This document shows, in pieces, positions 4,289 to 31,127 of a stretch of 64,000 nt of DNA. Under the pieces are notes generated by a model that saw only the letters and a program-made list of their open reading frames with translations, was not told where the DNA came from and ran no database searches. The translations under genes and the position numbers were made by a program. Location: NCBI RefSeq assembly GCF_003660165.1, contig NZ_CP032829.1, positions 124,001 to 188,000 on the forward strand, read 5' to 3'. The stretch's first letter is position 1. Each line of letters opens with the position of its first letter. Origin of the DNA: Sphingomonas paeninsulae (GTDB lineage: Bacteria > Pseudomonadota > Alphaproteobacteria > Sphingomonadales > Sphingomonadaceae).

Positions 4289-4293
4289 GGCGT

Positions 4294-6267
4294 TCAACCG
4301 GGGTTCGATTTGCCGAGATAGGTGGACAAAGCGTTACGCTTCGCAGGACCAGCCCGTGGGTTCAGCAAGTCATAAACGACAGCGTTTTCAAGCACGCGCT
4401 GAACATAGTCGCGCGTTTCCTTGAACGGAATTGCTTCAATCCATGCCAGCACATCCGCGCCGGGCAGCCGTGGGTCGCCGTTCGCCACCAACCATTTGTT
4501 CACGTTACCCGCGCCAGCATTATAAGCAGCAACCGACAGGACGTAATTGCCACCGTATCGATCCATCAAGCGGCCGAAATACCATGACCCAAGCGATGCG
4601 TTGAATGTCGGGTCATCGAGACTGGCAGCATTATAAGCCACGCCGGTCTTGCCAGCGACATCACGCGCGGTGCCGGGCATCAATTGCATCAGACCGCGAG
4701 CCCCCGCACGGCTGACGATCTTGCGGTCGAACTGGCTCTCCTGACGTGCGATTGCGTGGATCATCGTCCAGCTTGGCTGGTTTTCAGGGGTGATGGGTAC
4801 AATCGGAAAACCGGTCCGAACATAATCACGCAAGCCGTTGATCCCGGCACTACGCCCGATCATCACGCCAAGATCGGGCCGATTGATACGGATGGCCAGT
4901 TCGGACGCCAGAACGTGATCTTTGTCACTCTCGGCCGCAGCAGCGATTGCGCGGACGAACAAACTCTGATTGGCCCAGTCGCCGGTCTGTCCAAGGTAAG
5001 TCGCGGCACGGACGATCTCGCGACGGAAAAAGGCATCCCGGTCGTTTGCCGATATGTCGATGGTGCGGGTGACCACCGGAATGGTCAGCGGTGTGCCGAT
5101 CCGCTCGCTGGCAAGTTGGCCGTAGAACTGGTCGAAATAAGCGGCGGCGCGACGGTAATAGCTGTTGGCATCGCTGCGGCGGCCAGCGGCTTCGGCAGCG
5201 CGACCAGCCCAGTAAATGCCCTTTACCTGCGTCTGCGGAGACCGAGCGGCTTGCGAATATTTATCGAATAACGCGATGGCATCGGCGGGACGGCCAAGAC
5301 GGTTCAGGGCTGCTGTGCCTGCCAGCCATGTCAGGTTGGTATAATCGTCGCGCTCGCTGAGCGGGCGGTCACGGATGACCGTGCCTGCGGGATATGTGTC
5401 GTCCACCTGCCGCGCGATGTCATAAGCGACCTGCCACTGGCCTGCATCGGCGGCACCCTTGGCAAAGCTGTACAGCGTGTCGAGCCAGCGATCGGGATCA
5501 AGCGGGGTATAGTTCAGGCGGCGCGGGGCAGACAGCAGAGCGCGAGCTGCAAACTCCTGACCAGTGGCCCGCAACCAACTTGCCTGATCTACCAAATAAC
5601 CGGCGTCTCCGCGTGCGGTGCCAGACGTTAGCGAAACTTTCGTCAAGGCTTCGGGTGAGCGCGTCTGCATGGCAATCCGGGCGTCGAAAACCGGTTGGCG
5701 TGTGGGGGAGGCCAGCGAGATTTGGCGTCCGGCGCTAGCGGTCGATCGCACCCATAAGAGGCGATCCTCGCGTTGATCCTGATCCTGGGGGGTTAGCGCG
5801 CCAGAAAAACGGGAGATCAGCCGAGTCTCGTCGTCGATCGACAGTGAACCGGTAGTCCAGGCACGCCGCGCCATGTCCCGTGCTGCATCACGCTGGCCGG
5901 TGGCATCCAGCGCCTCGGCATAGCGGAGCGCTGCCGATGGCGACTGCGCGGGATAACGCGTGAAATAGGCAAGTATCTGGGTTGGGGAAACGCTATCGGG
6001 GCGCAATTGACGTTCGGCGGTCTTCCTCAGCGCGGCTTCGCCCGGCCAACCGGGATGACGGAGCAGAAAATCGGCATAAGACTGAAACGGTAGCGAGTCC
6101 GACTGCCGCACGGCCATCCACTGCGCCAGCGCGTCGGATAATCCCGCATTGCTGGGTGCGACAAATGATCGTGGCGGAGGGGGAGCCATCAAATCCTGCG
6201 CAAAGGCCGGAAATGCGGTGAATATGGCCATTCCGGCGACTATTGCGGGGGTCAGATACTTTGTCAT
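4294..6267 (-). CDS. slt: Soluble lytic murein transglycosylase (SLT family)
   Basis: Periplasmic enzyme that cleaves the MurNAc-GlcNAc bond of peptidoglycan to leave 1,6-anhydro ends. ATG 6267 gives a clean signal peptide (MTKYLTPAIVAGMAIFTAFP, then AFAQ); an upstream in-frame ATG at 6342 would put 25 polar residues before it and is less likely. A long alpha-helical, superhelical region of about 480 residues precedes the catalytic domain. The catalytic motif IARQESQFD (Glu near residue 510), followed by GARGLMQLMPGTA and VAAYNAGAGNV, is the SLT signature. The length of 657 residues matches Slt70-type enzymes. It is divergent from dapA and upstream of greB in the same direction. Confidence 0.9.
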   Translation of the reverse strand: MTKYLTPAIVAGMAIFTAFPAFAQDLMAPPPPRSFVAPSNAGLSDALAQWMAVRQSDSLPFQSYADFLLRHPGWPGEAALRKTAERQLRPDSVSPTQILAYFTRYPAQSPSAALRYAEALDATGQRDAARDMARRAWTTGSLSIDDETRLISRFSGALTPQDQDQREDRLLWVRSTASAGRQISLASPTRQPVFDARIAMQTRSPEALTKVSLTSGTARGDAGYLVDQASWLRATGQEFAARALLSAPRRLNYTPLDPDRWLDTLYSFAKGAADAGQWQVAYDIARQVDDTYPAGTVIRDRPLSERDDYTNLTWLAGTAALNRLGRPADAIALFDKYSQAARSPQTQVKGIYWAGRAAEAAGRRSDANSYYRRAAAYFDQFYGQLASERIGTPLTIPVVTRTIDISANDRDAFFRREIVRAATYLGQTGDWANQSLFVRAIAAAAESDKDHVLASELAIRINRPDLGVMIGRSAGINGLRDYVRTGFPIVPITPENQPSWTMIHAIARQESQFDRKIVSRAGARGLMQLMPGTARDVAGKTGVAYNAASLDDPTFNASLGSWYFGRLMDRYGGNYVLSVAAYNAGAGNVNKWLVANGDPRLPGADVLAWIEAIPFKETRDYVQRVLENAVVYDLLNPRAGPAKRNALSTYLGKSNPG

Positions 6268-8306: not shown

Positions 8307-10676
8307 TCGAAACCTGCTGGCCGGCCGAAACCGCGCGATCGGTGCCATTGTCGCGGCTGCGGCAGTCGCGTCGGCAGGGGCTATCCTTAAGGCTACCGCG
8401 TCTTTGGCGATTGCAATTGGATTTGGGGGACAGTCGTTTGCGTCGCTGCCCTGCTGCTGCTGTTCCGCCAGCTATACCCGCCGCCATCAGAGGCCGGAAC
8501 CAATGCCGTCGACTGGTCGCTAGTCCGTGAAGCCGCTGAACAGGGTGGCACGGCCATCGCGATCACCGATCGACAAGGACGGCTGGTTTGCACCAATGAC
8601 CTGCACGACAGGATGTTCGATGGTCCGGCCACGCCGCCGGGATTGCCAGTCGATGCGGCGGGCATCAATCTGATGACAGCTGCCGGGCGTACCGCATGGC
8701 GCGATGGGCAGGCGAGTGCTGCCGGAATCAGGCGCGACGGGCGAGTGCTGAACGTCGATATCGTTCGTGCCGGCGCGGCTCAGGATTGCCTGATCTGGCG
8801 GTTTAGCGCCGCGCCGGGCACCGACACTCTATTCGACCCATCGGAGATTATCGACGGAGCCTGGGGCGAGCGCATGGGCGAGGCTGGCGTGATGATCGCT
8901 CTGATCGGCAGCGAAGGCCGGGTGCGCGCCGCCAACCGGCCGATGGTGAAACGCGCGACCGGGCGTGGCGATGCGCCGATTGCCGGGCGCGATCTGGCAA
9001 GCCTGCTATCGTCGGACAGTCACGGGCAAACGCGCTTCAAGCTGGAGGGGCCACTCGGTACGCCATTGCGGCTGTTCACGATCCCGGTTGCCGCAGAAGC
9101 AGAGAATGGCCCGCAACTGGTCGCCCTGATCGACGATGATTCGTTACGCGCAGGCGAGGGGGCCGATATCCCCCTTCAGAAGCTGCTGGCGATGTTGCCG
9201 CTCGGACTGGCGCTCGCCGATCGCGACGGCCGGTTTCTCTATATGAATCAGGCATTTATCCGCGCGGCCAATGTCGCAGCGGGATCGACCCCGGTTTATC
9301 CAGGGGATCTGGTCATCCGTGACGATAAAACGGCGGTGGCCGATGCTGTTCGGCGGTTTGCGTCAGGACAGACGAGTTCGGGCGACATGTCGGTGCGATT
9401 GCGCGATCGACCCGATGAACCCGTGGCACTAACGATGGCAGGCGCGCGCGGGCTGGGCGAGGCTGCGGTTCTGCTCAGCCTGAAGGACAATACCGAGGAG
9501 TCGCGCCTGAAACGCGAAGTAGCTCAGGCCACGAAGATGCAGGCCGTCGGTCAGCTTGCCGGCGGTGTGGCGCATGATTTCAACAATATCCTGACCGCGA
9601 TCATCGGGCATTGCGACCTCATGCTGATGCGCCACACGCCGGGCGACAGCGACTATGACGACATAACTCAAATACGGATCAATTCGAATCGTGCAGCAGG
9701 GCTGACGCGGCAATTACTGGCATTTTCCCGGCAGCAGACATTGCGCCCGCAAATCCTGCAACTCCCCGACGTTATCGCCGAAGTTTCGCATCTGCTCCAG
9801 CGTTTGCTGGGTGAAACGGTAACGCTGGCGGTCAATCACGGGCGCGCTTTGGGGTCGGTCCGCGCCGATCCGGGGCAGTTGGAACAGGTCATCGTCAATC
9901 TGGCGGTGAACGCCCGCGATGCGATGCCAAACGGTGGCACGGTGACATTGCAAACCTATGCCGTGTCTGCTGCCGATGTGCGTAAACTTGGCAGCGATAT
10001 CATGCCCGTTATCGATTATACGGCGCTGCGGCTGAGCGATACCGGGACCGGAATCCCGCCGGAAATCCTGTCGAAAGTATTCGAACCGTTCTTTACGACA
10101 AAGGAAATCGGCAAGGGGACCGGGCTTGGCCTCTCGACTGTCTATGGCATCGTCAAACAGTCGAACGGATTTATCTTCGCCGATTCCAAGGAAGGCGTCG
10201 GCACCAGTTTCGTGATCTATTTGCCCGTCCACAAGGCTGAGGAACCGGCGCAGATCGAGGCTCCGGTCAAGGTCGAAAAACCGGCAGACCTATGGGGTAA
10301 TGAGACCGTTTTGGTGGTCGAGGACGAGGACATGGTGCGCACCGTCGCCGAACGTGCGCTGTCGCGGCATGGCTATACCGTGCTCACCGCGTCGCATGGT
10401 GAGGAGGCGCTCGAGATTCTGGGGCAGGGTACGCAGATCGACCTGCTGATTTCCGACGTGGTTATGCCGACAATGGACGGGCCGACGCTTGTTCGCCACG
10501 CCCGAGAGCGGTTTCCCGACCTGCCGATCCTGTTCATGTCGGGGTATGCCGAGGAGCAATTGCGCAAGTCGATCCATATCGACCGAGTGGCGTTTTTGCC
10601 GAAACCGTTTTCGGTGAAGCAACTGGCCGAAGCGGCGCGTGACGCGCTTGCGGGTACGAAACCCATAATAACATAA
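8299..10676 (+). CDS. cckA: Hybrid histidine kinase/phosphatase CckA, single-base frameshift
   Basis: CckA controls the master cell-cycle regulator CtrA through the phosphotransferase ChpT in alphaproteobacteria. From ATG 8299 there are two hydrophobic segments (around [18 protein letters not shown] and [11 protein letters not shown]), then PAS-like sensing regions and the HisKA H-box [17 protein letters not shown]. The ATPase follows ([26 protein letters not shown]), and a C-terminal receiver has phospho-acceptor Asp in [12 protein letters not shown] and KPFSVKQL. The frame breaks at the G5 run 8425-8429; a sixth G joins both halves to give 792 residues. The order smpB-DUF2062-cckA is continuous by overlap. 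No other copy of the kinase is visible, and CckA is essential in several relatives, so a missing base is the likely cause. Confidence 0.85.
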
Positions 10677-10688
10677 TCGGAACATATC

Positions 10689-10703
10689 GTTCTACTCTTG
10701 TTC
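10689..10703 (+). promoter_or_regulatory. LexA box upstream of recA (GTTC-N7-GTTC)
   Basis: GTTC TACTCTT GTTC matches the established alphaproteobacterial SOS operator GTTC-N7-GTTC. It lies 75 bp upstream of the recA ATG. Extra GAAC half-sites flank it at 10680-10683 and 10709-10712. This predicts LexA repression of recA with induction by DNA damage. Confidence 0.85.
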
Positions 10704-10778
10704 TTTTGGAACAAACCAGATACGAAGCCAATCAGCGCGTTGACCGGATGCGCGTAACGGCTACGAGGGAACAACGAC

Positions 10779-11879
10779 ATGGCAGCTCAGTTGAAAGTCA
10801 TCGGCAGCGATATGGCATCCAAGACAGATAAAGCAGAAAAAGCAGAATCCAGCGACCGGGCACGCGCTCTGGAAGCAGCGCTCGCGCAGATAGATCGTGC
10901 GTTCGGCAAAGGCTCGGCAATGAAGCTGGGCAGCCGCGAGAAGATGGAGATCGAGGCGGTTTCGACCGGCTCGCTCGGGCTGGATATTGCGCTCGGTATC
11001 GGCGGACTTCCGCGCGGTCGGGTGATCGAGATTTTCGGACCTGAATCGTCGGGTAAGACGACACTGGCCTTGCACGCGATTGCCGAAGCTCAGAAAATCG
11101 GTGGCACGGCGGCGTTTATCGACGCCGAACACGCGCTCGACCCGAGCTATGCGAAGAAACTGGGCGTGAACATCGACGAACTGATCGTTTCGCAGCCAGA
11201 TACCGGTGAGCAGGCGCTCGAGATTTGCGACACTTTGGTCCGTTCCAATGCAGTCGATGTTCTGGTGATCGATTCGGTCGCAGCACTCGTGCCGCGCGCT
11301 GAAATCGAAGGAGAGATGGGCGACAGTCACGTCGGCCTGCAGGCACGTCTGATGAGCCAGGCGCTGCGCAAGATCACCGGGTCGATCAGCCGCTCACGCT
11401 GCACGGTTATCTTCATCAATCAGATTCGCATGAAGATCGGTGTAATGTACGGTTCGCCCGAAACGACGACGGGCGGCAACGCGCTGAAATTCTATGCCAG
11501 CGTCCGTCTCGACATTCGCCGCACCGGCCAGATCAAGGAACGCGACGATATCGTCGGCAACACGACTCGCGTGAAGGTCGTGAAGAACAAGGTCGCGCCA
11601 CCGTTCAAGCAGGTCGAATTCGACATCATGTACGGCGAAGGCATTTCAAAGACCGGCGAAATCCTCGACCTCGGCGTGAAGGCCGGGATCGTTGAGAAAT
11701 CGGGTTCGTGGTTCAGCTATGATTCGATTCGCATCGGTCAGGGTCGCGAAAATTCGAAGACTTATCTGAAGGACAATCCGGAAGTTGCCGACCGGCTTGA
11801 AAAGGCCATCCGCCAGCGCACGGACAAGGTTGCCGAGGAGCTGATGGTCGGCCCCAGCGAAGACGATGATTCGGAATGA
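10779..11879 (+). CDS. recA: DNA recombinase RecA
   Basis: Forms the ATP-dependent filament on single-stranded DNA for strand exchange and stimulates LexA self-cleavage. Seen: Walker [10 protein letters not shown] (residues 87-95), the [12 protein letters not shown] Walker B, the L1/L2 DNA-binding regions ([40 protein letters not shown]) and an acidic C-terminus (PSEDDDSE). ATG 10779 is preceded by GAGGGA at a suitable distance; ATG 10812 is an alternative without a ribosome binding site. At 366 residues it is slightly longer than E. coli RecA because of a charged N-terminal extension. The LexA box upstream shows SOS control. The stop overlaps the next ATG. Confidence 0.97.
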
Positions 11880-12220
11880 AAATCGGTCTGCCTAATTACG
11901 TCGAGCTACCGGCGGCCGATATAGCCGCCGCCAAGACGTTTTATGCAGACGTATTTGGCTGGGGCCTTGTTGATTATGGTCCCAGCTATGCTTGCACGAC
12001 GACCGGAACAGTCGATGTCGGACTTCAGGGTGACCCCGACGAAGCATCCAAGGCTCCGTTGCCGGTGTTGCCCGTAACTGACATCGACGCTGCGCTGGCT
12101 GCGGTAATCAAAGCAGGCGGCCAAATTGTTCGACCGATCTTCGCATTTCCGGGCGGCCGCCGTTTTCAGTTTCTCGATCCGAATGGCAATGAACTGGCGA
12201 TCATGCAGGCCGATGATTGA
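11876..12220 (+). CDS. VOC-superfamily (glyoxalase/bleomycin-resistance type) protein
   Basis: A 114-residue single-domain protein. It has the VOC pattern: [20 protein letters not shown] at the N-terminus with FGWGLVDYG, and [20 protein letters not shown] at the C-terminus with the usual Asp-Pro-Asn-Gly-Asn-Glu metal/substrate loop. The substrate cannot be predicted. Its ATG overlaps the recA TGA (ATGA), so it is translated with recA and probably rises with it in the SOS response. Confidence 0.85.
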
Positions 12221-12287
12221 ACTTGGTTTACGGGGAACTTAGCGCGTCATCTTCCCAAGCGCGATGCTCTTCCCTACATCGCTGGCC

Positions 12288-14950
12288 ATGACATCGACCA
12301 ACGACATCCGCCGCTCGTTCCTCGACTATTTTGCAGGGGAAGGTCACGAGCGCGTCGCGTCTTCGCCGCTCGTGCCACACAACGATCCAACGTTGATGTT
12401 CGTCAACGCGGGAATGGTGCCGTTCAAGAACGTCTTCACCGGCCTCGAACATCGAGCTTATAGCACCGCGACATCCAGTCAAAAGTGCGTTCGCGCTGGC
12501 GGCAAGCATAACGATCTCGACAATGTCGGCTATACCGCCCGCCATCACACATTCTTCGAAATGCTCGGCAATTTCTCGTTCGGCGATTATTTCAAGGAAC
12601 GCGCGATCACGCTCGCATGGGCGCTGCTCACAAAGGATTGGGGCCTTGATCCGAACCGGCTGACCGTCACCGTCTATCATACCGATGACGAGGCCTTTGA
12701 CCTTTGGAAAAAGATCGCGGGGCTTCCCGATCACCGTATCATTCGCATCCCGACTTCGGACAATTTCTGGGCGATGGGTGACAGCGGACCGTGCGGGCCG
12801 TGCTCCGAGATTTTCTATGACCATGGCGACCATATCCCCGGCGGACCTCCGGGAAGCCCCGACGAAGACGGCGACCGTTTTGTCGAGATCTGGAATCTGG
12901 TGTTCATGCAATATGACCAGATCGCAGGCGGTCCCCGCCTCGACCTGCCGAAACCATCGATCGATACCGGAATGGGACTGGAGCGCGTCGCCGCCGTCAT
13001 GCAGGGCGTTCACGACAATTACGATACCGACACTTTCCGCGCACTGATTGCAGAATCGGGCAATCTGACCAAGACACTGACGACGGGCGCTACCCAGGCA
13101 TCGCACCGGGTCATTGCCGACCATCTTCGCGCATCCAGCTTTCTGATCGGCGACGGCGTCCTGCCCGCGAGCGAGGGGCGCGGCTATGTCCTGCGACGGA
13201 TCATGCGCCGTGCGATGCGCCATGCCCAGTTGCTCGGTGCAGCCGAACCGCTGATGTATCGCCTCGTGCCTTCGCTGGTTGCAGAGATGGGCAGCGCCTA
13301 TCCCGAACTGGTGCGCGCACAACCGCTGATCGAAGCAACGCTGCTTCAGGAAGAGACGCGCTTTCGCCAGACCCTCAATAATGGGTTGAAACTGCTCGAC
13401 GAGGCGACCGCGACGCTCGGTGAAGGCGATACGCTGCCCGGCGAAACGGCCTTCAAGCTCTATGACACCTATGGTTTCCCCTATGATTTGACCGAGGACG
13501 CGTTGCGCGGGCGCAATATCGGCGTCGATAAAACTGGTTTCGATGAAGCAATGGGCCGCCAGAAGGCAGCCGCGCGCGCCGCATGGAAGGGTTCGGGAGA
13601 CGCCGCATCCGCCGACATCTGGTTCGACATAGTCGACACGCTCGGTGGCACGGAATTTACCGGCTATTCGAGCGACGCCAGCGATGGTCAGATCGTAGCG
13701 ATCATCAAGGACGGTGCTCAGGTCGATCGTGCGACTGCAGGCGACAAGGTCATCGTCCTGACCAATCAAACGCCATTTTACGGCGAAAGCGGCGGGCAGG
13801 CTGGCGACGCGGGGACAATCACCGGCGACAACGGACTGTCGGCTAAGATCAGCGATACCGGCAAGCAATTGGGCCGGTTGCACACACACCAGACCATTAT
13901 CGACAGCGGTAACATCGCGGTCGGCGATACGGTGCATTTAAGCATCGATACCGAACGACGCGATCAATTGCGTGCTAACCATAGCGCAACGCATCTTTTG
14001 CACGCGGCGCTGCGGAACCGGCTTGGCGGGCATGTTTCGCAAAAAGGCAGCCTTGTCGCTGCGGATCGTTTGCGGTTCGACTTTTCGCACTCCGCCGCAC
14101 TGTCGAGCGAAGATATTGCCGTCATCGAGCGCGAGGTTAACGCCCGCATTCGCGAAAACGATGCCGTCACAACGCGGCTTATGACCCCCGACGATGCGGT
14201 CGCGGCAGGCGCGCTTGCCTTGTTCGGTGAAAAATATGGCGATGAAGTCCGCGTGCTGTCGATGGGCAGGGATAGTGGCGACGGGCATTATTCGGTCGAA
14301 CTGTGCGGCGGCACTCACGTCGCGGCGACGGGCGACATCGCTTTGTTCAAAATCGTTTCCGAAAGCGCCGTATCCTCTGGCATCCGACGTATCGAGGCAT
14401 TGACCGGGGAAGCGGCCCGACTGTGGCTGACCGCCCGCGAAGATCGCCTGAAGGAAGTTGCCTCCGCGCTCAAGGCGTCGCCCGACGACGTGCCGAATCG
14501 TGTCATGGCTCTGATCGAAGCGCAGCGAAAGCTGGAGCGCGAATTGGCGGATGCGAAAAAGGCGCTGGCACTCGGTGGCGGTGGCGGGATTGTGACGGAG
14601 CCTGAAAAGATCGGTGATTATCAGGTTCTGACGCAGGTTTTCGAAGGTCTGGACGGCAAACAACTCAAATCGCTTGCCGATGAAAAGCGCGCTCAGATCA
14701 CGTCGGGCATTGTTTTCCTCGTCGCGAGTAACCCTGGGGCAAATACCTATGTCGCGTCAGTGACTCCCGATCTCAGCGATACGCTGAGTGCGGTGGAAAT
14801 CGTGCAAAAAGGCGTTCTCGCCGGCGGTGGCAAAGGCGGTGGCGGACGTCCCGACATGGCGCAGGGGGTGGACCCGGCGGTCAGGAAGCGGCCGACCTCG
14901 CTGTAAAGGCCGCCCGCGCACTTGTCGAAGAGTTGACCGTCTCAGCCTGA
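12288..14950 (+). CDS. alaS: Alanyl-tRNA synthetase, single-base frameshift at the C-terminus
   Basis: Charges tRNA-Ala. ATG 12288 gives [20 protein letters not shown], the family N-terminus; ATG 12264 is less likely. Visible parts: class II catalytic core ([33 protein letters not shown]), the editing domain zinc motif ([12 protein letters not shown] and [13 protein letters not shown]), a coiled coil, and a C-Ala domain ending [14 protein letters not shown]. At the G5 run 14864-14868 the frame slips and would stop at 14906. A sixth G gives [20 protein letters not shown] and a natural end at TGA 14948-14950, 887 residues in all. The restored end is the usual C-Ala tail, and the gene is essential, so the missing base is probably an assembly error. 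The 3' end overlaps the convergent antiporter gene by 9 bp. Confidence 0.95.
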
Positions 14951-16705
14951 ACGCGCCGCGCGCAGGCTGCCAAGCCTTGGCAGCGTATCGAGGTGTCCCG
15001 AAGCCTTGATCTGCGCGCGGAGTTCGTCGCGTTTCTCGTGGATCGATGCGATGACCGGCCCCATTGCGACACCCAGATCGACGAGAACGGCTTCGGAAAG
15101 CTGCAACGAGCTTTCCAAGGTTTCGGGCACAGCATCGGTGCAACCCGCGCGATACAGTTCGCCCGCATGTTCGGGGTCGCGCGCACGGGCAACGATCTTC
15201 AAGTCGGGATGCGCCTGGCTCAGGCGACGCGCAAGACGAACTGCCTGCACGGGATCGTCCATGGTCATCACAAGTGCGGAAGCGTTTTCGATCCCAACGC
15301 TTTCGAGTACGCCATCGCGCCCCGCATCACCAAACCTAACATGTTTTCCCTCACGACGAGCCGCCGCAACGATATCGACATCGGCCTCGAGAGCGAGCCA
15401 CGGCAGATTATGGGTGTCCAGCATAGCGGCAACCATCTCACCGACGCGGCCATATCCGATGATAATCGTGCCCGCCTCCGCGACCGGGTCGGTGCTGGCA
15501 AAAGGCACATCACGCCATTCGGTCCGGCGCGCGAACTCATGGCCGACCCACGCCAGCAGAGGCGTAATGGTGAGGCCGATCGCGGTAACCACCTGCCAGA
15601 AAGCGGCTGTATCCGCCGCGATCAACCCGGCAGTTGCCGCCGCGCCGAGCACGATCAAAGTCGTTTCAGACGGGCTAGCCATCAACACACCCGTTTCGGT
15701 CGCGATTCCACCGCGTACACCGCCAATGCGTAGTGCAAGCGTAGTAACGACAGCCTTGATGATTACGACCCCGGCGATCGCCGCCAACAGGGCGGGCCAT
15801 TGCTGCAATACCATCACCAGATCAAGGCTCATGCCGACGGTGATCAGGAATATTCCGAGGGCAAGGCCACGGAAGGGGGCTACAACCGATTCGACTTCAT
15901 GGGCATAGTCGGTTTCGGCAATCAGCAGTCCGGCGACGAGCGCACCGACGATCGGCGAGAGGCCGACCGCGACTGTCGCGACGCTGGCGAGGATGACGAC
16001 GAGCAAACTGGCGGACAGGAACAATTCGGGCGTTTTTGTGCGCGCGGCCTGGGCAAACAGGCGAGGGAGAACGAATGGGCCAGCAATCAGCATCGCTCCA
16101 ACCGTCAAGCCGCCACCCAGCAACAGTTTCAGAACGCCATCGAACCCCGCGGCCGAGCCCCCCAACGCCCCCAGCGCGAATACGATTGGGACCAGCGCAA
16201 GATCTTCGAACAGCAACATGGCAAAGGCAAGCTTGCCGACGGCGCTGGTCGATCCCGCAATCGGAAGCACCAATGCGGTCGATGACAGGGCGAGCGCGAT
16301 CCCGAGCCCTGCCGCTGCCCCGGTTGTTTCACCGGTTATCAACAACACCGCTGCGATAAGGATGGCCGAAATGATAAGTTGCGTTGCGCCAAATCCTACA
16401 ACACGCTTTCGCATTGACCACAGCCTACGAAAAGACAGCTCCAACCCTATGGAAAACAAGAGTAATATGATGCCAAGTTCGGCAAATGGCTCGACCGCAT
16501 GGGGGTCGGTTATCGAAAGATGATAAAGCCACGGAAATTGCGGCTGCAGCGCGCCAAGTCCGTGGGGACCCACCAAAATTCCGACCAGAATGAATCCGAT
16601 GATCGGTGTTATTCGGAAACGGGCAAAGGCGGGAATAACCAGCCCGGCCGCTCCGAGAATTACAAGGGCGTCGCTTGCTGCTGCTGAGGGTATTCCATTG
16701 CTCAT
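14942..16705 (-). CDS. CPA2-family cation:proton antiporter with TrkA-N domain (KefB/YbaL-like)
   Basis: Inner-membrane monovalent cation/proton antiporter of 587 residues. About twelve hydrophobic segments fill residues 15-390, including the CPA2 blocks GFILVGILVGPHGLG, GIILLLFSIGLELSFRRLW, LALSSTALVLPIAG and FLITVGMSLDL. A cytoplasmic RCK/TrkA-N domain follows, with its nucleotide-binding motif GTIIIGYGRVGEMVAAMLD. The last 60 residues are charged. Kef-type systems protect against electrophiles by potassium efflux, while YbaL-like ones are less defined; I cannot tell which from sequence alone. It stands alone, with about 110 bp between its start and the icd stop upstream of it. Confidence 0.88.
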   Translation of the reverse strand: MSNGIPSAAASDALVILGAAGLVIPAFARFRITPIIGFILVGILVGPHGLGALQPQFPWLYHLSITDPHAVEPFAELGIILLLFSIGLELSFRRLWSMRKRVVGFGATQLIISAILIAAVLLITGETTGAAAGLGIALALSSTALVLPIAGSTSAVGKLAFAMLLFEDLALVPIVFALGALGGSAAGFDGVLKLLLGGGLTVGAMLIAGPFVLPRLFAQAARTKTPELFLSASLLVVILASVATVAVGLSPIVGALVAGLLIAETDYAHEVESVVAPFRGLALGIFLITVGMSLDLVMVLQQWPALLAAIAGVVIIKAVVTTLALRIGGVRGGIATETGVLMASPSETTLIVLGAAATAGLIAADTAAFWQVVTAIGLTITPLLAWVGHEFARRTEWRDVPFASTDPVAEAGTIIIGYGRVGEMVAAMLDTHNLPWLALEADVDIVAAARREGKHVRFGDAGRDGVLESVGIENASALVMTMDDPVQAVRLARRLSQAHPDLKIVARARDPEHAGELYRAGCTDAVPETLESSLQLSEAVLVDLGVAMGPVIASIHEKRDELRAQIKASGHLDTLPRLGSLRAARSG

Positions 16706-16816
16706 GGCTCCTCCTAACGCGGTTTTCGTTCAGAAGGCAGGCCAGTTGTTCGCTTTTTCGAAATGAATACCGCTCGGCAAAAAGGGTGCGGCCCAGTCGC
16801 CACCCCCTCTGTTTGA

Positions 16817-18040
16817 TTACTTATTCCAGTCGTTCATTGCGTTTTCGAGGTTCTGGCGGATGGCCTCGAAGAACTGCTCGGTCGTCATCCACGGCTGATC
16901 CGGGCCGATCAGAATGGCGAGATCCTTGGTCATGCCACCCTGTTCGACAGTGTAGATGCAGGCACGCTCGAGCGTTTCAGCAAACTTCACCACGTCCGGC
17001 GTGTCGTCGAACTTGCCGCGATATTTCAGGCCGCCGGTCCATGCGAAGATCGATGCGATCGGGTTGGTCGAGGTCGCCTTGCCCTCTTGATACATACGAT
17101 AATGGCGGGTCACGGTACCGTGCGCGGCTTCGGCTTCAACGGTTTTGCCGTCTGGCGTCAGCAGGACCGAAGTCATCAGGCCGAGAGAGCCGAAGCCCTG
17201 TGCGACCTGATCCGACTGCACGTCGCCGTCATAGTTCTTGCAGGCCCAAACGAATTTGCCCGACCATTTCAGCGCGGACGCAACCATGTCGTCGATCAGG
17301 CGATGTTCGTAAACGATCTTGGCTTCAGCGAACTGGGTTTTGAATTCAGCGTCGAACACTTCCTGAAACAGATCCTTGAAGCGGCCATCATAGGCTTTCA
17401 GGATGGTGTTCTTGGTCGACAGGTACAGCGGCCAGCCACGTCCCAGCGCATAGTTCATGCTGGCACGGGCAAAGTCGCGGATCGAATCGTCCAGGTTGTA
17501 CATCGCGAGCGCGACGCCTGCCGATGGATACTGGAACACTTCCTCGTCAATGACCGTGCCGTCATCGCCTTCGAATACGAGGCGCAATTTGCCGGGGCCG
17601 GGGACGAGGAAATCGGTCGCGCGATACTGATCACCGAATGCGTGACGACCGATAACGATAGGATCGGTCCAACCGGGAATCAGGCGTGGGACGTTCTTGA
17701 TTACGATAGGTTCGCGAAAAACGCAGCCACCGAGAATGTTGCGAATCGTGCCGTTCGGCGACTTCCACATCTTTTTCAGGTTGAATTCGGTAACGCGCGC
17801 TTCGTCGGGGGTGATCGTGGCGCACTTAACGGCAACACCATATTGTTTGGTCGCGTTGGCCGATTCCACGGTGACGCGGTCGTCGGTTGCATCGCGATTT
17901 TCGACAGCAAGATCATAATATTTCAGGTCGATATCAAGGTAAGGCAAGATCAGCCGTTCGCGAATCCACTGCCAGATGATCCGGGTCATCTCGTCGCCGT
18001 CGATTTCGACGATTGGGTTTTTTACCTTAATCTTGGCCAT
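16817..18040 (-). CDS. icd: NADP-dependent isocitrate dehydrogenase
   Basis: Oxidative decarboxylation of isocitrate to 2-oxoglutarate in the TCA cycle. ATG 18040 gives [20 protein letters not shown], the N-terminus of the homodimeric eukaryote-like NADP-IDH found in alphaproteobacteria (407 residues). The substrate- and metal-binding blocks [56 protein letters not shown] and GTVTRHYR are present. An in-frame extension upstream to 18103 has no family match. It is divergent from psd, with about 110 bp between the starts for two promoters. Confidence 0.95.
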
Positions 18041-18148
18041 GTGTTGTTTGCTCCTGGGGATGGAATTTGCGCCGTCGTTAGAGGCGGAGGCGCAGGCAAT
18101 CAACCACGCGCATTGTCTTGGCCGGTCTGGTTGCTTACAAAAGGCAAC

Positions 18149-18919
18149 ATGGCATCACAAATTCCCGGCTCGCCCGGCTCGACACCCCCAAGTTCTGCTC
18201 CCAATTCGAGCCAGGTCGCAAATGGCGTGAAATGGCGATTTCCGCCGGTACACCCCGAAGGTCGCAAATTTGCTGCCATCGCCGCAGGCATAACGTTTAT
18301 CGCTTTCATCTGGATTCACTGGCTGACCTGGCCGTTGATAATCGTGACAGCATGGGTTGCTGCATTTTTTCGCGATCCGGTGCGGTCTGTACCCCAGGGC
18401 GATGATCTGATCGTCGCACCTGCAGACGGCCTGATCACCTTGATTGAGACGGTTCCGGTTCCACGCGAGTTGAGTGGAGAAGGCGGGCTGGGCGATCTGC
18501 CCGTAACCCGTGTCTCGATTTTCATGAGCGTGTTCGACGTTCATATCAATCGCACCCCGATCTCAGGCACCGTTACGCGCGTCGTTTATATTGCGGGCAA
18601 GTTTCTCAACGCCGATCTCGACAAAGCCAGTGAAGAGAATGAACGCCAGCACCTGTTGGTCGAGCGTCGTGATGGTGTGCGGATCGGATTTACGCAGATC
18701 GCGGGGCTGGTTGCCCGCCGCATCATGCCATTCGTAAAGCCGGGTGACATGGTTGCCGCTGGTCAGCGTATCGGACTTATCCGCTTCGGCAGCCGCGTCG
18801 ATGTGTTCCTGCCCGCTGGCACAGCACCCCGCGTGGCTTTGGGTCAGCGCAGCGTTGCGGGAGAAACCGTCCTCGCGGTGATCGGCAACCCGAATCCGGC
18901 CAGCGGCATCAGCCAGTGA
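18149..18919 (+). CDS. psd: Phosphatidylserine decarboxylase (short, proteobacterial type)
   Basis: Makes phosphatidylethanolamine from phosphatidylserine at the inner membrane. A proline/serine-rich N-terminus is followed by a hydrophobic hairpin (around [20 protein letters not shown]) and the core [22 protein letters not shown] and [15 protein letters not shown]. The self-processing site is seen as RFGSR, with the pyruvoyl group expected from Ser215. ATG 18149 was chosen because the open frame upstream is antisense to icd. The stop overlaps the GTG start of pssA, so both steps of PE synthesis are translated together. Confidence 0.93.
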
Positions 18920-19716
18920 AGTCGACGGCACCTGTCGGTGCGCGACGCGGTATCCCGCTGCGTGCGGTCGCACCCAATGCGGTTACGGCGCTGGCATTGT
19001 GTTCGGGCCTGACGGCGGTTCGGTTTGCCATTGCCGGTGAATGGGAACGCGCACTGGCTGCGATCATTATTGCGGGCGTTCTCGATGGACTGGATGGGCG
19101 GATTGCGCGGCTTTTGAAAGGCGAAAGCCGTTTCGGAGCTGAGCTTGATTCGCTGTCCGATGTAATCGCTTTCGGTGTTGCTCCGGCGCTGGTGACGTTT
19201 TTGTGGTCACTGAATGCGGTGCCGCGATATGGCTGGATATTCTCGCTGGCCTATACTGTTTGCGCCGCACTTCGCCTCGCACGCTTTAATGCTGCGATCG
19301 ATACCGCGGATCAGCCGCATAAATCCGCCGGGTTTTTGACGGGGATACCTGCGCCCGCTGCAGCTGGCCTTGCTCTGCTGCCAATATATTTGTGGCTCGT
19401 TACCGAATCGCACTGGTTCCGCGAACCTTATGTCGCGGGTCCATGGCTGGCCTTCGTTGCTTTCCTGATGATTTCGAATCTGGCGACATTTAGCTGGGGA
19501 TCGCTCCGGCTCCGGCGTCGTATCAGGCTCGAAGCGCTTGCTGGCATCGCAATTCTGTTCGGCGCTTTGTTATCTGCACCATGGCCCACCCTGACGCTCG
19601 TCTGTGTTGTCTATCTAGCCCTCATCCCAATGGGGATGAGGAGCTATGCCAAGATCAAGCGGCTGCGCGCCACTGCGGCGATGCAGCAACAGGCTGAATT
19701 CCCGACAACGTCCTGA
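18916..19716 (+). CDS. pssA: CDP-diacylglycerol--serine O-phosphatidyltransferase
   Basis: Integral membrane CDP-alcohol phosphatidyltransferase that makes phosphatidylserine, the substrate of Psd. The family signature DG-x2-AR-x8-G-x3-D-x3-D appears as [20 protein letters not shown] followed by [17 protein letters not shown]. About seven hydrophobic segments are visible. GTG 18916 overlaps the psd stop (GTGA). 266 residues, normal for the subclass II enzyme. The 3' end overlaps the convergent small membrane gene by about 60 bp. Confidence 0.93.
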
Positions 19717-19885
19717 AACGAACGGCACGACGTACGCGTGGTGCCGATGGAGCCGGATTAAACAGCGCCTGACCAGCGAGCGCTGACAGCACAGCCGTGC
19801 CCGATTCGCGCACGGTGTAGGTGATAATACTCATGCCAAAAACAATCAGCCCGAATGACGTCATGGCAGCCAAAAGATGAACCAT
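19655..19885 (-). CDS. Small membrane protein, predicted SOS-inducible
   Basis: A 76-residue frame from ATG 19885. Residues 3-23 are a strong hydrophobic segment (HLLAAMTSFGLIVFGMSIIT), followed by a polar, Arg-rich tail ([15 protein letters not shown]). I do not recognise the family. What supports it as a gene is the upstream layout on the same strand: TTGACA at 19966-19971, a -10-like CATAAC at 19944-19949, a GTTC-N7-GTTC LexA box across that -10, then AGGGAG about ten bases before the ATG. Small single-span membrane proteins induced by LexA (SidA of Caulobacter) block division in alphaproteobacteria. A similar job is possible but is inference. The 3' end lies antisense to the pssA end, so the true C-terminus deserves checking. 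Confidence 0.62.
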   Translation of the reverse strand: MVHLLAAMTSFGLIVFGMSIITYTVRESGTAVLSALAGQALFNPAPSAPRVRRAVRFRTLSGIQPVAASPQWRAAA

Positions 19886-19937
19886 GTCACAAACTCCCTA
19901 GTGCCGATCAAACTTCGGCGTTGCGTCTTTGTTCCAT

Positions 19938-19952
19938 GTTCTTGTTATGTTC
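19938..19952 (-). promoter_or_regulatory. LexA box over the promoter of the small membrane protein
   Basis: On the plus strand GTTC TTGTTAT GTTC, an exact GTTC-N7-GTTC match; a third GTTC half-site begins at 19931. On the minus strand it covers the -10-like CATAAC (19944-19949), downstream of a consensus TTGACA (19966-19971) with a 16-bp spacer. It is 53 bp from the minus-strand ATG and about 140 bp from rpsB, so the small gene is the likelier target. Confidence 0.75.
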
Positions 19953-20093
19953 TAGACTATCCGCTTGTCAACAACCAAATACAGGGCTACGGGGACCATC
20001 CATTCCACATGGGAAGCACCAAACCGGTGTTCGAGCGGCGACCGTTCGAATCATCGCTTCCCAGAGGTTAAACCGGGTTAAGGAGAACTGATT

Positions 20094-20894
20094 ATGGCGG
20101 CACCAGTCGTCACGATGCACCAGCTGTTAGATGCAGGCGCACATTTTGGACACCAGACACACCGCTGGAACCCAAAGATGAAACCATACATCTTTGGCGA
20201 CCGCAACGGCGTCCACATTCTCGATCTTTCGCAGACCGTACCTTTGATGGCGCGCGCGCTCGATTTCGTTTCGCAGATTTCTGCGGGCGGCGGCAAGGTT
20301 CTGTTCGTTGGCACCAAGCGCCAGGCTCAGGAGCCTATCGCTGACGCTGCTCGTGCTTCGGGCCAGCATTTCGTCAACCATCGCTGGTTGGGCGGCATGC
20401 TCACCAACTGGAAGACAATCTCCGGTTCGATCAAGCGCTTCAAGGCGCTGGAAGAGCAGCTTTCCGGCGACACGACGGGCCTTACCAAGAAGGAAGTCCT
20501 TCAGCTTACCCGTGAGCGCGACAAGTTCGAGCTTTCGCTCGGCGGCATTCGCGACATGGGCGGCATCCCCGATGTCATGTTCGTGATCGATGCGAACAAG
20601 GAAGAACTGGCGATCAAGGAAGCCAACACGCTCGGTATTCCGGTCGTCGCGATCCTCGATTCGAACGTTTCGCCTGACGGTATCGCATTCCCGATCCCAG
20701 CCAACGACGATGCAAGCCGGGCAATCCGCCTGTATTGCGAAGCTATCGGCGCTGCTTCGACCCGCAATGGGCAGCAGAAGGGCATTGATTTCGGCGCAAT
20801 GGTCGAGCCTCCGGTCGAGCCAGCATTGGCTGCACCTGAAGCAGCGCCAGTTGCCGAAGCTGCGCCTGCCGAGGCAGCACCAGCTACCGTCTAA
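20094..20894 (+). CDS. rpsB: 30S ribosomal protein uS2
   Basis: Small-subunit protein needed for binding of bS1. Strong ribosome binding site AAGGAG nine bases before ATG 20094. The family core is clear: [52 protein letters not shown] and [21 protein letters not shown] typical alphaproteobacterial Ala/Pro/Glu-rich tail (about 30 residues) ends the 266-residue protein. First gene of the translation/outer-membrane run, 86 bp before tsf. Confidence 0.97.
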
Positions 20895-20980
20895 GCCGTC
20901 ACCGGCTAGTCATAACGACGGGGCAGGGCGCGTGAACACGTGTCCGCCCCGTCTGCATATCAGATAAAGGAATTAGGCAA

Positions 20981-21912
20981 ATGGCAGAGATCACAGCCGC
21001 TAGCGTCAAGGAACTGCGCGAGATTTCCGGCGCAGGCATGATGGATTGCAAGAAGGCACTGAACGAAACCGACGGCAACATGGATGCAGCGGTCGATTGG
21101 CTGCGCACCAAGGGGCTGGCGACTGCGGCTAAAAAGGCCGGTCGTGCGGCTTCCGAAGGTCTCGTCGGCGTGGCCGTCAGCGGCAACACGGGTGCCGCTG
21201 TCGAAGTCAACTCCGAGACCGATTTTGTTGCAAAGAACGAGCAGTTCCAGAACTTCGTGCGTTCGGCGACCGAACTCGCGCTGACCAACGGCACGATCGA
21301 GGCACTTGGCGCGGCGACGATGCCACAGGGCGGATCGGTTCAGGACGTGCTGACCGCGAACATCGCCACGATCGGTGAGAACCAGTCGCTGCGTCGCGTT
21401 GCCACTGTTTCCGTGAACGAGGGCGCTGTCGTGTCCTATGTCCACAATGCGGCGGCTCCCGGCCTCGGCAAGATCGGTGTTCTCGTCGCGCTTGAAGGCA
21501 ATGCCGACAAGGCGAAGATCGAAGCACTCGGTAAGCAGTTGGCGATGCATATCGCTGCTGCCAGCCCTGCTGCACTTCACGAGGAAGGCCTTGATGCCGC
21601 ACTCGTCGAGCGTGAGCGTGCGATTGCCATGGAAAAAGCAGCCGAAAGCGGCAAGCCAGCCAACATCATCGAAAAGATGGTCGAAGGTGCAATCGCCAAG
21701 TTCCGCAAGGAAAACGCGCTGTTGAGCCAAGTGTTCGTCATGGACAACAAAACCAAAATTTCGGACGTCGTTGCTGCGGCTGCAAAGGACGCAGGGGCAG
21801 CATTGCGCTGACCGCCTATGTCCGTTTCCAGCTTGGCGAAGGCATTGAGAAGGTTGTCAGCGACTTTGCCGCTGAAGTTGCCGCTACTGCGGGCGTCAAA
21901 CAGCCCGCCTAA
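20981..21912 (+). CDS. tsf: Translation elongation factor Ts, single-base frameshift near the 3' end
   Basis: Guanine-nucleotide exchange factor for EF-Tu. The N-terminal UBA-like domain ([35 protein letters not shown]) and the EF-Tu contact block [19 protein letters not shown] are intact. As written the frame stops at 21811 after DAGAALR. Adding one base near 21800 gives [20 protein letters not shown] and continues to TAA 21910-21912, for 310 residues, the normal length. The restored tail ([18 protein letters not shown]) is clearly EF-Ts. The gene is essential, so a missing base in the assembly is by far the likeliest reason. Ribosome binding site AAAGGAA before ATG 20981. Confidence 0.95.
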
Positions 21913-22004
21913 TCTGATTAGCTGAGCCTCGGCGCTTGGAATCGGCGCGTACCCAATCTAGGGTGCGCGCCGCCTGCCTCCTATTCGAAAGCACCCCGCG
22001 CGCC

Positions 22005-22730
22005 ATGAGCCGCTCCAGCTACAAACGAATATTACTGAAACTGTCGGGCGAAGTCCTGATGGGGCCAGGTCAGTTCGGTATCGATTCCGAAACGGTCGCG
22101 CGACTTGCTCAAGAGGTTAAAGCGGCCAAGGATTCGGGCTTTGAGCTGTGCCTTGTCATTGGTGGCGGCAACATCTTTCGCGGAATCGCCGGTGCAGCAT
22201 CGGGCATGGATCGAACCGCTGCCGACTACATGGGTATGCTGGCGACAGTGATGAACGCGCTGGCATTTCAGGATGCGCTCGAGAAAATCGGTGTCGATAC
22301 CCGTGTGCAGTCGGCAATTCCGATGGCGACGGTTTGCGAACCCTATATCCGGCGCCGCGCGATGCGGCACATGGAGAAGGGGCGGATCGTTATTTTTGCC
22401 GCGGGAACGGGCAATCCATTCTTCACAACCGACACGGCATCCGCATTGCGCGCTGCCGAAATGGGCTGTGATGCTTTGTTCAAGGGGACGAGCGTCGATG
22501 GTGTTTACAACGCCGATCCGAAGCAGGATCCGACTGCGACCCGTTATGAATCCTTGAGTTTTAATCGCGTCCTGTCAGACAATCTGAAGGTCATGGATGC
22601 GGCAGCTGTCGCGCTGTGCCGCGACAATCATATTCCGATCGTGGTGTTCAATATCCGCGAACAGGCTAATCTAGCGCTCGTATTAAGCGGGCAGGGCACG
22701 GCGACAATCGTCGGCAAAGAGGACAGTTAA
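22005..22730 (+). CDS. pyrH: UMP kinase
   Basis: Phosphorylates UMP to UDP in pyrimidine nucleotide synthesis; a hexameric amino-acid-kinase-fold enzyme. ATG 22005 gives [20 protein letters not shown], the family N-terminus; the upstream in-frame ATG 21936 adds unrelated residues. Blocks seen: [53 protein letters not shown] and [20 protein letters not shown]. 241 residues. Three bp separate it from frr. Confidence 0.95.
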
Positions 22731-22733
22731 GTT

Positions 22734-23291
22734 ATGGCCGCATACGACAAAGCCGATCTGGAACGCCGGATGCTCGGTGCCGTTGAATCGCTAAAGGGCG
22801 ATCTTGGCGGACTACGCACCGGGCGAGCTTCGGTGAACCTGCTCGATCCCGTCACGGTCACGGTTTACGGCGCGAATATGCCGTTGAACCAGATTGCCAC
22901 CGTTTCGGCACCGGAGCCCCGGATGCTGTCGGTTCAGGTCTGGGACAAGGGCAATGTCGGCCCCGTCGACAAGGCGATCCGTTCGGCCGGCCTTGGCCTG
23001 AACCCGATCGTCGACGGCACGAACATCCGCCTTCCAATTCCCGATTTGACAGAGGAACGTCGCAAGGAGCTGGCTAAGCTAGCCGGTCAATACGCAGAAA
23101 AAGCACGTATCGCAGTGCGCAATGTTCGTCGCGACGGTATGGATGCGCTGAAGATAGACGAAAAGAAGAGCGAAATCAGCGAGGACGATCGCAAAAAACG
23201 CGAGACCGAAGTGCAAAAGATGACCGACAGCACGATTGCCGATATTGATTCGACGTCGGCTGCCAAGGAAAAGGAAATCCTCGGCAAGTGA
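22734..23291 (+). CDS. frr: Ribosome recycling factor
   Basis: Splits the post-termination ribosome together with EF-G. The 185-residue protein has the standard features: [60 protein letters not shown] and [19 protein letters not shown]. The helical tail [20 protein letters not shown] ends the protein. The TGA overlaps the GTG start of uppS. Confidence 0.96.
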
Positions 23292-24025
23292 GCGCTGTTG
23301 CCGCCACAACGGGAACCTCCGGGGCGACCGCGTGCGGCAAAACGTCCGGCGAGCTGCGCCACGTTGCGATCATTATGGACGGCAATGGCCGCTGGGCGAA
23401 AAAGCGATTTTTGCCACGGATTGCTGGTCATCGCAAAGGCATCGAAGCCGTTCGCGCGGTCAGTAGAGGAGCTCGCGAACAGGGTATCGACGTCCTGACG
23501 CTCTATGCGTTTTCATCGGAAAACTGGCGACGCCCGGCAGAGGAAATCAGCGACCTGATGGGTTTGCTTCGCCATTTCATCCAGACCGACATTGACGAGC
23601 TGGACGAGAGCAACGTCCGTTTGCGCGTAATCGGCGATCACAATGCGTTTGCGCCCGATCTTGTCGCGTTAATCGATGCGGCGGTTGAACGAACATCGAC
23701 GAACAGCGGATCGACGCTGGTAATCGGCCTGAATTATGGGTCGCAGGACGAGATCGTTCGTGCAGCGCGTAAATTGGCCGGTCGTGATCCTGCGACGATC
23801 GATGCGGCGGCGCTTGAAGCTGAGCTTGATACCGGCGACCTGCCACCGGTCGATCTTCTGATCCGCACGTCGGGCGAACAACGGCTGTCCAACTTCATGC
23901 TGTGGCAGGCTGCATATGCCGAACTGCTGTTTGTCGATACGCTGTGGCCCGATTTCGGCAAGGCGGCGCTGGCGGAAGCGGTTGCGACATACAATCTGCG
24001 CGAGCGGAGGTTTGGCGGGCTTTGA
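23288..24025 (+). CDS. uppS: Isoprenyl (undecaprenyl) diphosphate synthase
   Basis: Cis-prenyltransferase making the C55 lipid carrier for cell-wall and polysaccharide synthesis. The catalytic block [20 protein letters not shown], the [14 protein letters not shown] block and the C-terminal [20 protein letters not shown] are all present. GTG 23288 overlaps the frr stop. The first 25 residues are variable. 245 residues. The stop overlaps the likely TTG start of cdsA. Confidence 0.95.
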
Positions 24026-30899: not shown

Positions 30900-31127
30900 A
30901 TGAAAAAAGACCTGCATCCCGAATATCACACGATCAAGATCAAGATGACCGACGGCACCGAGTTCGAAACACGTTCGACCTGGGGCAAAGAAGGTGATTT
31001 GATGACGCTTGAAATCGATCCTTCCTCGCACCCGGCATGGACCGGTGGCAAGGGCGCAATGCTCGATGCCGGTGGTCAGGTTGCACGCTTCAACAAGCGT
31101 TTCGGCGGACTTTCGCTCAAGAAATAA
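30900..31127 (+). CDS. rpmE: 50S ribosomal protein bL31
   Basis: Large-subunit protein of 75 residues ([20 protein letters not shown]). The zinc-binding Cys residues of the C+ form are absent, so this is the zinc-independent C- form usual in alphaproteobacteria. ATG 30900 is favoured over TTG 30897. About 100 bp after fabZ, so possibly with its own promoter. Confidence 0.93.

Follow-up and report, generated by a model that had tools for sequence, protein, structure and literature searches.

Known SOS division inhibitors are small and share little sequence, so that similarity searches miss them. In Caulobacter, SidA and DidA are reported to act on FtsW and FtsN with Z-rings left undisturbed (PMC4211646). 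Like the candidate presented here, SidA is a small inner-membrane protein of an alphaproteobacterium under LexA control (predicted in the present case), and it acts on late division; it is, however, 29 amino acids (aa) long (PMC4211646), whereas the candidate has 76 aa (family median 79 aa), and its long basic tail ends in Ala-Ala (AA). DidA, a small damage-induced membrane protein blocking division via FtsN, is SOS-independent and driven by DriD (PMC4211646), while the candidate gene carries a conserved LexA box, which argues against induction of the LexA-independent DidA type.

Staphylococcus SosA resembles the candidate in length (77 aa) and in its single N-terminal membrane segment; it is SOS-induced, and its C-terminus is tied to turnover by CtpA (PMC6851548). 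Reporter fusions place the SosA tail outside the cell (PMC6851548), whereas here charge alone suggests a cytoplasmic tail, a difference that speaks against the checkpoint reading favoured below. Bacillus YneA also has one membrane segment, is SOS-induced and CtpA-controlled, and binds FtsW through its transmembrane segment (PMC13396833), but it carries a LysM domain, whereas the candidate has no known domain. LysM after one transmembrane segment marks the YneA/ChiZ type, and no LysM occurs among the Pfam matches of 9 and 25 members of the candidate's family. SulA (PF03846) was found in none of 59 genomes of the sphingomonad family, the organism's own included, with a positive E. coli control; on these two results the candidate falls outside the SulA and YneA/ChiZ classes. 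E. coli TisB and DinQ are likewise LexA-controlled membrane peptides, but they are membrane-depolarising type I toxins, DinQ being a toxic single-span peptide (PMC3567139).

In the literature covered, with preprints and most subscription journals outside its scope, no SOS division inhibitor described for sphingomonads was found, nor any experiment on such a protein in any sphingomonad. The SOS genes named in the passages covered of an anaerobic transcriptome study of Sphingopyxis granuli, among them lexA, recA and imuAB-dnaE2, include no small gene of this kind (PMC6472365).

Layout of the locus at the pssA 3′ end

The window analysed here is a 64,000-nucleotide (nt) stretch of the Sphingomonas paeninsulae genome (contig NZ_CP032829.1). 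At the 3′ end of pssA it contains the following features:

19655..19885, minus strand: small membrane protein gene, 76 aa, stop included (open reading frame, ORF; conserved family; signs of purifying selection among relatives)
19938..19952, minus strand: LexA box, GAACATAACAAGAAC on the gene strand, which is GTTCTTGTTATGTTC on the plus strand (exact GTTC-N7-GTTC; orientation fixed in relatives)
19966..19971, minus strand: −35 element TTGACA (from sequence; TTGAC kept on the gene strand in relatives)
19944..19949, minus strand: −10-like CATAAC inside the LexA box (weak consensus match)
19894..19899, minus strand: ribosome-binding site AGGGAG, 8 nt 5′ of the ATG (Shine-Dalgarno-like 4-mer in 91/129 relatives)
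19655..19669, minus strand: codons for the C-terminal RAAA plus stop (antisense to the pssA motif around IKRLRA)
18916..19716, plus strand: pssA, convergent neighbour (62-nt overlap with the small gene at 19655–19716)
20094..20894, plus strand: rpsB, divergent neighbour (not the lasting partner of gene and box)

On the minus strand, the small gene starts with the ATG at 19885 and stops at 19657–19655, and a spacer of 16 nt separates TTGACA (19971–19966) from CATAAC (19949–19944). The protein would consist of one transmembrane helix from residue 2, followed by a basic, disordered tail ending in Ala-Ala. The initial annotation had read TTGACA, CATAAC, the box, AGGGAG, the ATG at 19885 and the 76 codons correctly, and the same box type that it noted before recA, a plus-strand gene, is confirmed at 10689–10703. 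It had placed the small gene between pssA and rpsB; this adjacency holds in the window, but the enduring partner is pssA, not rpsB. The 62-nt pssA overlap, pssA as the lasting partner and the C-terminal RAAA as a family hallmark go beyond that annotation.

Taken alone, the box does not stand out from chance in the window: exact GTTC-N7-GTTC boxes number 5, against 2.55 ± 1.68 in shuffled sequences, with 5 reached in 13 of 100 shuffles. Three more exact matches stand at 945–959, 4292–4306 and 30962–30976. The case for the locus is made by conservation: relatives retain the frame, the orientation of the box, the −35 element and the C-terminus.

A simple sigma-70 scan returned no promoter in 19500–20200; the small-gene promoter was missed because CATAAC is a weak −10. 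Among 123 aligned relatives, the small gene's strand carries TTGAC no more than 40 nt upstream of the box in 116, against 2/123 on the opposite strand (25 nt examined). It mostly starts 9–12 nt before the box in these 123 cases, and therefore the box would sit between −35 and −10 in most genomes, unlike that of the window, which covers the −10. Two Caulobacter genes that are induced early by mitomycin are reported to carry a box identical to the window 15-mer GTTCTTGTTATGTTC (PMC12700426).

Elsewhere in the same genome, the one LexA-domain match over the cut-off has the box GAACGAACTAGGAAC just upstream, and the longer pattern GAACAN6GAACAT occurs at 8 sites, against 0 for a backward control; beside the other seven, no known SOS gene was recognised by eye. 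One such box, on an 850-kb contig (L360, G000:C2:442366-442382), precedes a 352-aa frame that by eye resembles a ParB-type partition protein.

Conservation beside rpsB and pssA

Sequence similarity is a poor guide to this family. With the window protein as sole query, a peptide-pattern search of the named genomes returned no relative, the protein being too divergent, and a single-sequence search across 298 genomes was mostly noise outside the genus, with three same-genus relatives below E 0.002 (60, 53 and 39% identity) and few others. A nine-member profile (A1) matched 78 of the 298 family genomes at E ≤ 0.01, many matches (uncounted) lying beside rpsB by position. Position was then used in place of similarity, and synteny proved decisive.

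The rpsB gene was located in 149/149 genomes. Of these, 140 supplied upstream stretches; G018 and G121, whose rpsB lies close to a contig start, and the final seven regions were left out. The exact box occurs within 450 nt 5′ of rpsB in GTTC orientation in 104/140 genomes, and in the reverse orientation in 2/140. From the 4378 ORFs of these 140 stretches, an iterated profile (six rounds, not converged) retrieved 94 at E < 1e-3. Every one of them is antisense, and the sense strand gave 0. Profiles of membrane helices may drift on iteration, and here the sense strand, which encodes the membrane protein PssA, serves as a built-in control. At E < 0.01, the 140 regions divide into 92 with gene and box, 7 with the gene but no box in the examined range, 14 with the box only and 27 with neither, and in most of the 14 box-only regions a small hydrophobic frame is visible by eye after the box. 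The initial annotation had named a lack of conservation of frame plus box as one finding that would refute its proposal; both are retained in relatives.

Other elements are found upstream of rpsB. Two small genomes of one genus (L141 and L151, from G030 and G114) have exact boxes about 218–346 nt 5′ of rpsB, with hydrophobic frames of 74 and 82 aa that are not recognisably of the small-gene family and lack an AA end. The motif CCACATGG (20000–20012 of the window; rpsB leaders in L070–L209) recurs within 250 nt 5′ of rpsB in 65/140 genomes, and the longer CCATNCCACATGG in 17/140; CCACATGG is possibly part of an S2 leader. Rfam gave no match at the gathering threshold in 9500–24000 of the window.

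Among the 27 regions with neither gene nor box near rpsB, pssA was recognised in only one (G029). A pssA search of these 27 genomes and of two with doubtful matches found it in 28/29, and in 21 of the 28 the distance from pssA to rpsB exceeds 10 kb or the two are on different contigs, although draft assemblies may hide a true pssA–rpsB neighbourhood in these 21. In all, 141 stretches were assembled from the 140 genomes (G058 twice), with pssA recognised in 137 (136 genomes). Between −50 and +700 of the pssA stop, the exact box stands in the fixed orientation in 129/137 stretches and in the opposite one in 3/137. Like the counts near rpsB, these are independent of the gene-picking rule described below. 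The 21 split genomes include 18 that keep the box at pssA, 14 of them also with a picked gene behind it, and one (G056) that has the gene without an exact box; G093 and G156 have pssA without box or convincing gene. Outside the family, 40 post-pssA stretches from other families of the class, drawn from 98 such genomes with a pssA match, hold the box in the small-gene orientation in 0/40 cases and in reverse in 1/40. Found at pssA where rpsB is distant, and absent in this orientation from the stretches outside the family, the box therefore appears to travel with the small gene. On this comparative evidence it is pssA, and not rpsB, that gene and box stay with, and within the sample the trait seems restricted to the sphingomonad family.

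A set of 80 named pssA loci, partly from the same genomes, yielded a picked small gene in 61 (including Sphingomonas, Sphingobium, Rhizorhabdus, Tsuneonella and Novosphingobium), 55 of them with the exact box and 51 ending in AA. The remaining 19, Sphingorhabdus-like, gave no small gene, one of these loci ending 25 nt after pssA. The box itself is present in 73/80 loci, only 55 of which have a picked small gene, and the figure of 73 was dropped as support for the small gene, since 18 lack it. These are 18 of the 19 Sphingorhabdus-like loci (among L295–L317), where the box, in the cases inspected by eye, faces an rmuC-like gene. In L295, L299, L306, L313, L317 and similar loci, an exact LexA-type box stands 10–21 nt after the pssA stop, before the rmuC-like gene in the pssA direction. 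By these counts the small gene appears to be kept beside pssA in most sphingomonads sampled and absent from some, and so not universal.

The protein and its C-terminus

Members were picked by a helix near the start and a length of 50–130 aa, with a bonus for ATG and box, the C-terminus playing no part. The 137 stretches gave 133 picks, and 129 remained after four were dropped (G093 and G156, spurious; G114, not adjoining pssA; G058, second entry). They are 52–117 aa long (median 79 aa), and 126/129 overlap pssA, by a median of 50 nt. An exact box lies 15–230 nt upstream in 123/129, a count that the bonus given to boxes by the rule may favour, and not in the other 6. A GTTC-N7-GTTC box located in the promoter and conserved in front of the gene is what would be expected of a LexA regulon member, and the predicted LexA regulation of the small gene is well supported by these comparisons.

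Outside the overlap, dN/dS is below 1 in 16/16 pairs of at least 55% identity (0.08–0.61; pooled pS 0.479, pN 0.190); picking similar pairs favours low dN, yet synonymous change is large in the same pairs. These ratios argue that the small gene encodes a translated protein under purifying selection. Beyond the helix and the last residues, the family sequence is hardly conserved, which fits a binding peptide and points to no target. AlphaFold predicts one confident helix, residues 2–36 (block means 96, 98 and 87 over residues 1–30), and a low-confidence tail. Family members have a mean of 0.00 Lys/Arg before the helix and 2.36 in the 15 aa after it, which by the positive-inside rule suggests an N-out, C-in topology.

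At E ≤ 0.1, no Pfam, NCBIfam or PHROGs model matches more than two of 25 members, and the best match of a PDB profile search has E 0.24. Four hits were judged meaningless: PHROG 34790 (function unknown; E 0.001, window protein only), NF051484 (E 0.001, one member), Pfam MgtE (E 0.013, one member) and EPS_HpsP (two of 25 members, best E 0.0037). With no convincing model in these three collections, the family can still be called undescribed. The initial reading, an undescribed SOS-induced small membrane protein and at most a functional analogue of SidA, is supported, its SOS part resting on the conserved box.

The AA end is found in 116/129 picked proteins, against 17/329 long ORFs in neighbouring DNA and 0/47 in the window. 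As it lies antisense to the pssA motif V/I-K/R-R-Q-R, the RAAA end could be a mere shadow of that motif, a reading countered by codon bias and by non-overlapping members. The third pssA codon of the motif sets the penultimate residue of the small protein (121 in-phase cases). Where that codon encodes Arg (n = 104), it is CGG in 98 cases, CGA in 5, CGT in 1 and CGC in 0, although Arg codons just upstream in the same pssA genes (n = 249) include 104 CGC and 74 CGG; CGC at this position would change the penultimate Ala to Gly. The AA end also occurs in 16 of 18 distinct members that do not overlap pssA, a set that excludes the TTG-start picks L297 and L309 as well as L258, a duplicate of G056; several are close Sphingobium relatives, and the 18 are not independent cases. 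In these members the end is often LAA, as at the end of the ssrA tag. Codon choice and non-overlapping members together argue that the AA end is selected on the small gene's strand.

Many ClpXP substrates of Caulobacter are described as characteristically ending in AA, and CdnL was stabilised there when its AA was masked or replaced by DD (PMC5324124). By this analogy, the AA end is likely a self-destruct tag. Were the topology reversed, its reader would be a periplasmic C-terminal protease.

Proposed role and competing readings

On balance, we consider it probable, if only somewhat better than even, that the gene encodes a LexA-repressed, short-lived, single-span inner-membrane checkpoint protein, like SidA, DidA and SosA in function, with no homology to them implied. 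Upon DNA damage, LexA would be cleaved, the box over the promoter freed, and the protein would accumulate. Comparison among relatives lends its weight to the gene, its box, the strand of the promoter and the selection on protein and AA end, and the presence of lexA in the same genome, with a box beside it, counts for this explanation. Precedent supports LexA repression. The uncharged N-terminus would probably face outwards, with helix 2–36 spanning the membrane and the basic tail probably in the cytoplasm, a topology predicted from charge. The most likely job would be to keep FtsW/FtsI/FtsN, the late divisome, from acting until repair is complete, in the manner of Caulobacter SidA and DidA; this middle step, target and arrest alike, we infer from the class of SOS-induced small membrane proteins, and the absence of a SulA match leaves room for such an inhibitor without proving it. 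The Ala-Ala end would give the protein a short life, probably via ClpXP, a turnover likewise backed by precedent, and division would resume once synthesis stops.

An SOS-induced, membrane-depolarising peptide of the TisB/DinQ kind, lowering ATP and slowing growth with no divisome block, would equally account for LexA control and a single hydrophobic helix. We hold it unlikely, given members of 52–117 aa (median 79) whose basic tail is long and whose AA end is selected, and a gene that stays beside pssA across the family. Toxin-antitoxin genes typically spread rather than hold a fixed place, and we know of no selected AA-ended tail in TisB or DinQ. Another SOS service at the membrane, for instance tethering a repair or signalling protein or restraining envelope synthesis, is compatible with a sequence that names no target and with a basic, low-confidence tail that could bind lipids, nucleic acid or protein, but nothing speaks positively for any specific role of this sort, and we regard it as quite unlikely.

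It is also very unlikely, in our estimate, that phosphatidylserine synthesis is lowered after damage by the SOS transcript, antisense over the pssA 3′ end, or by an action of the small protein on PssA. The linkage to pssA does outlast separation from rpsB (box in 18/21, gene and box in 14/21 split genomes), and nearly all picked members overlap pssA; the 18 distinct members without overlap, four of them 100–187 nt away, and the protein-level selection, by which the product should matter, weigh against this reading. Just as doubtful, and frankly speculative, is a wider scheme in which a degradation tag antisense to the PssA C-terminal motif constrains the pssA frame, and the convergent locus of this sphingomonad SOS checkpoint links DNA damage to membrane-lipid synthesis as well as to division arrest. 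Chance, with the box accidental or belonging to rpsB and the frame not a gene, fits the box count of the window but deserves almost no credence, being refuted in the main by the conserved box orientation, −35 strand, codon selection and synteny, and by boxes kept at pssA in 18 of the 21 split genomes.

No SulA match occurs in the family genomes sampled, and the small protein, as a probable LexA-repressed checkpoint protein, looks like the brake of sphingomonads on cell division after DNA damage. The locus offers one gene, together with its predicted switch and off-signal, in bacteria that are easy to grow, and it illustrates how a degron under selection can be revealed by the codons of a gene that overlaps it.
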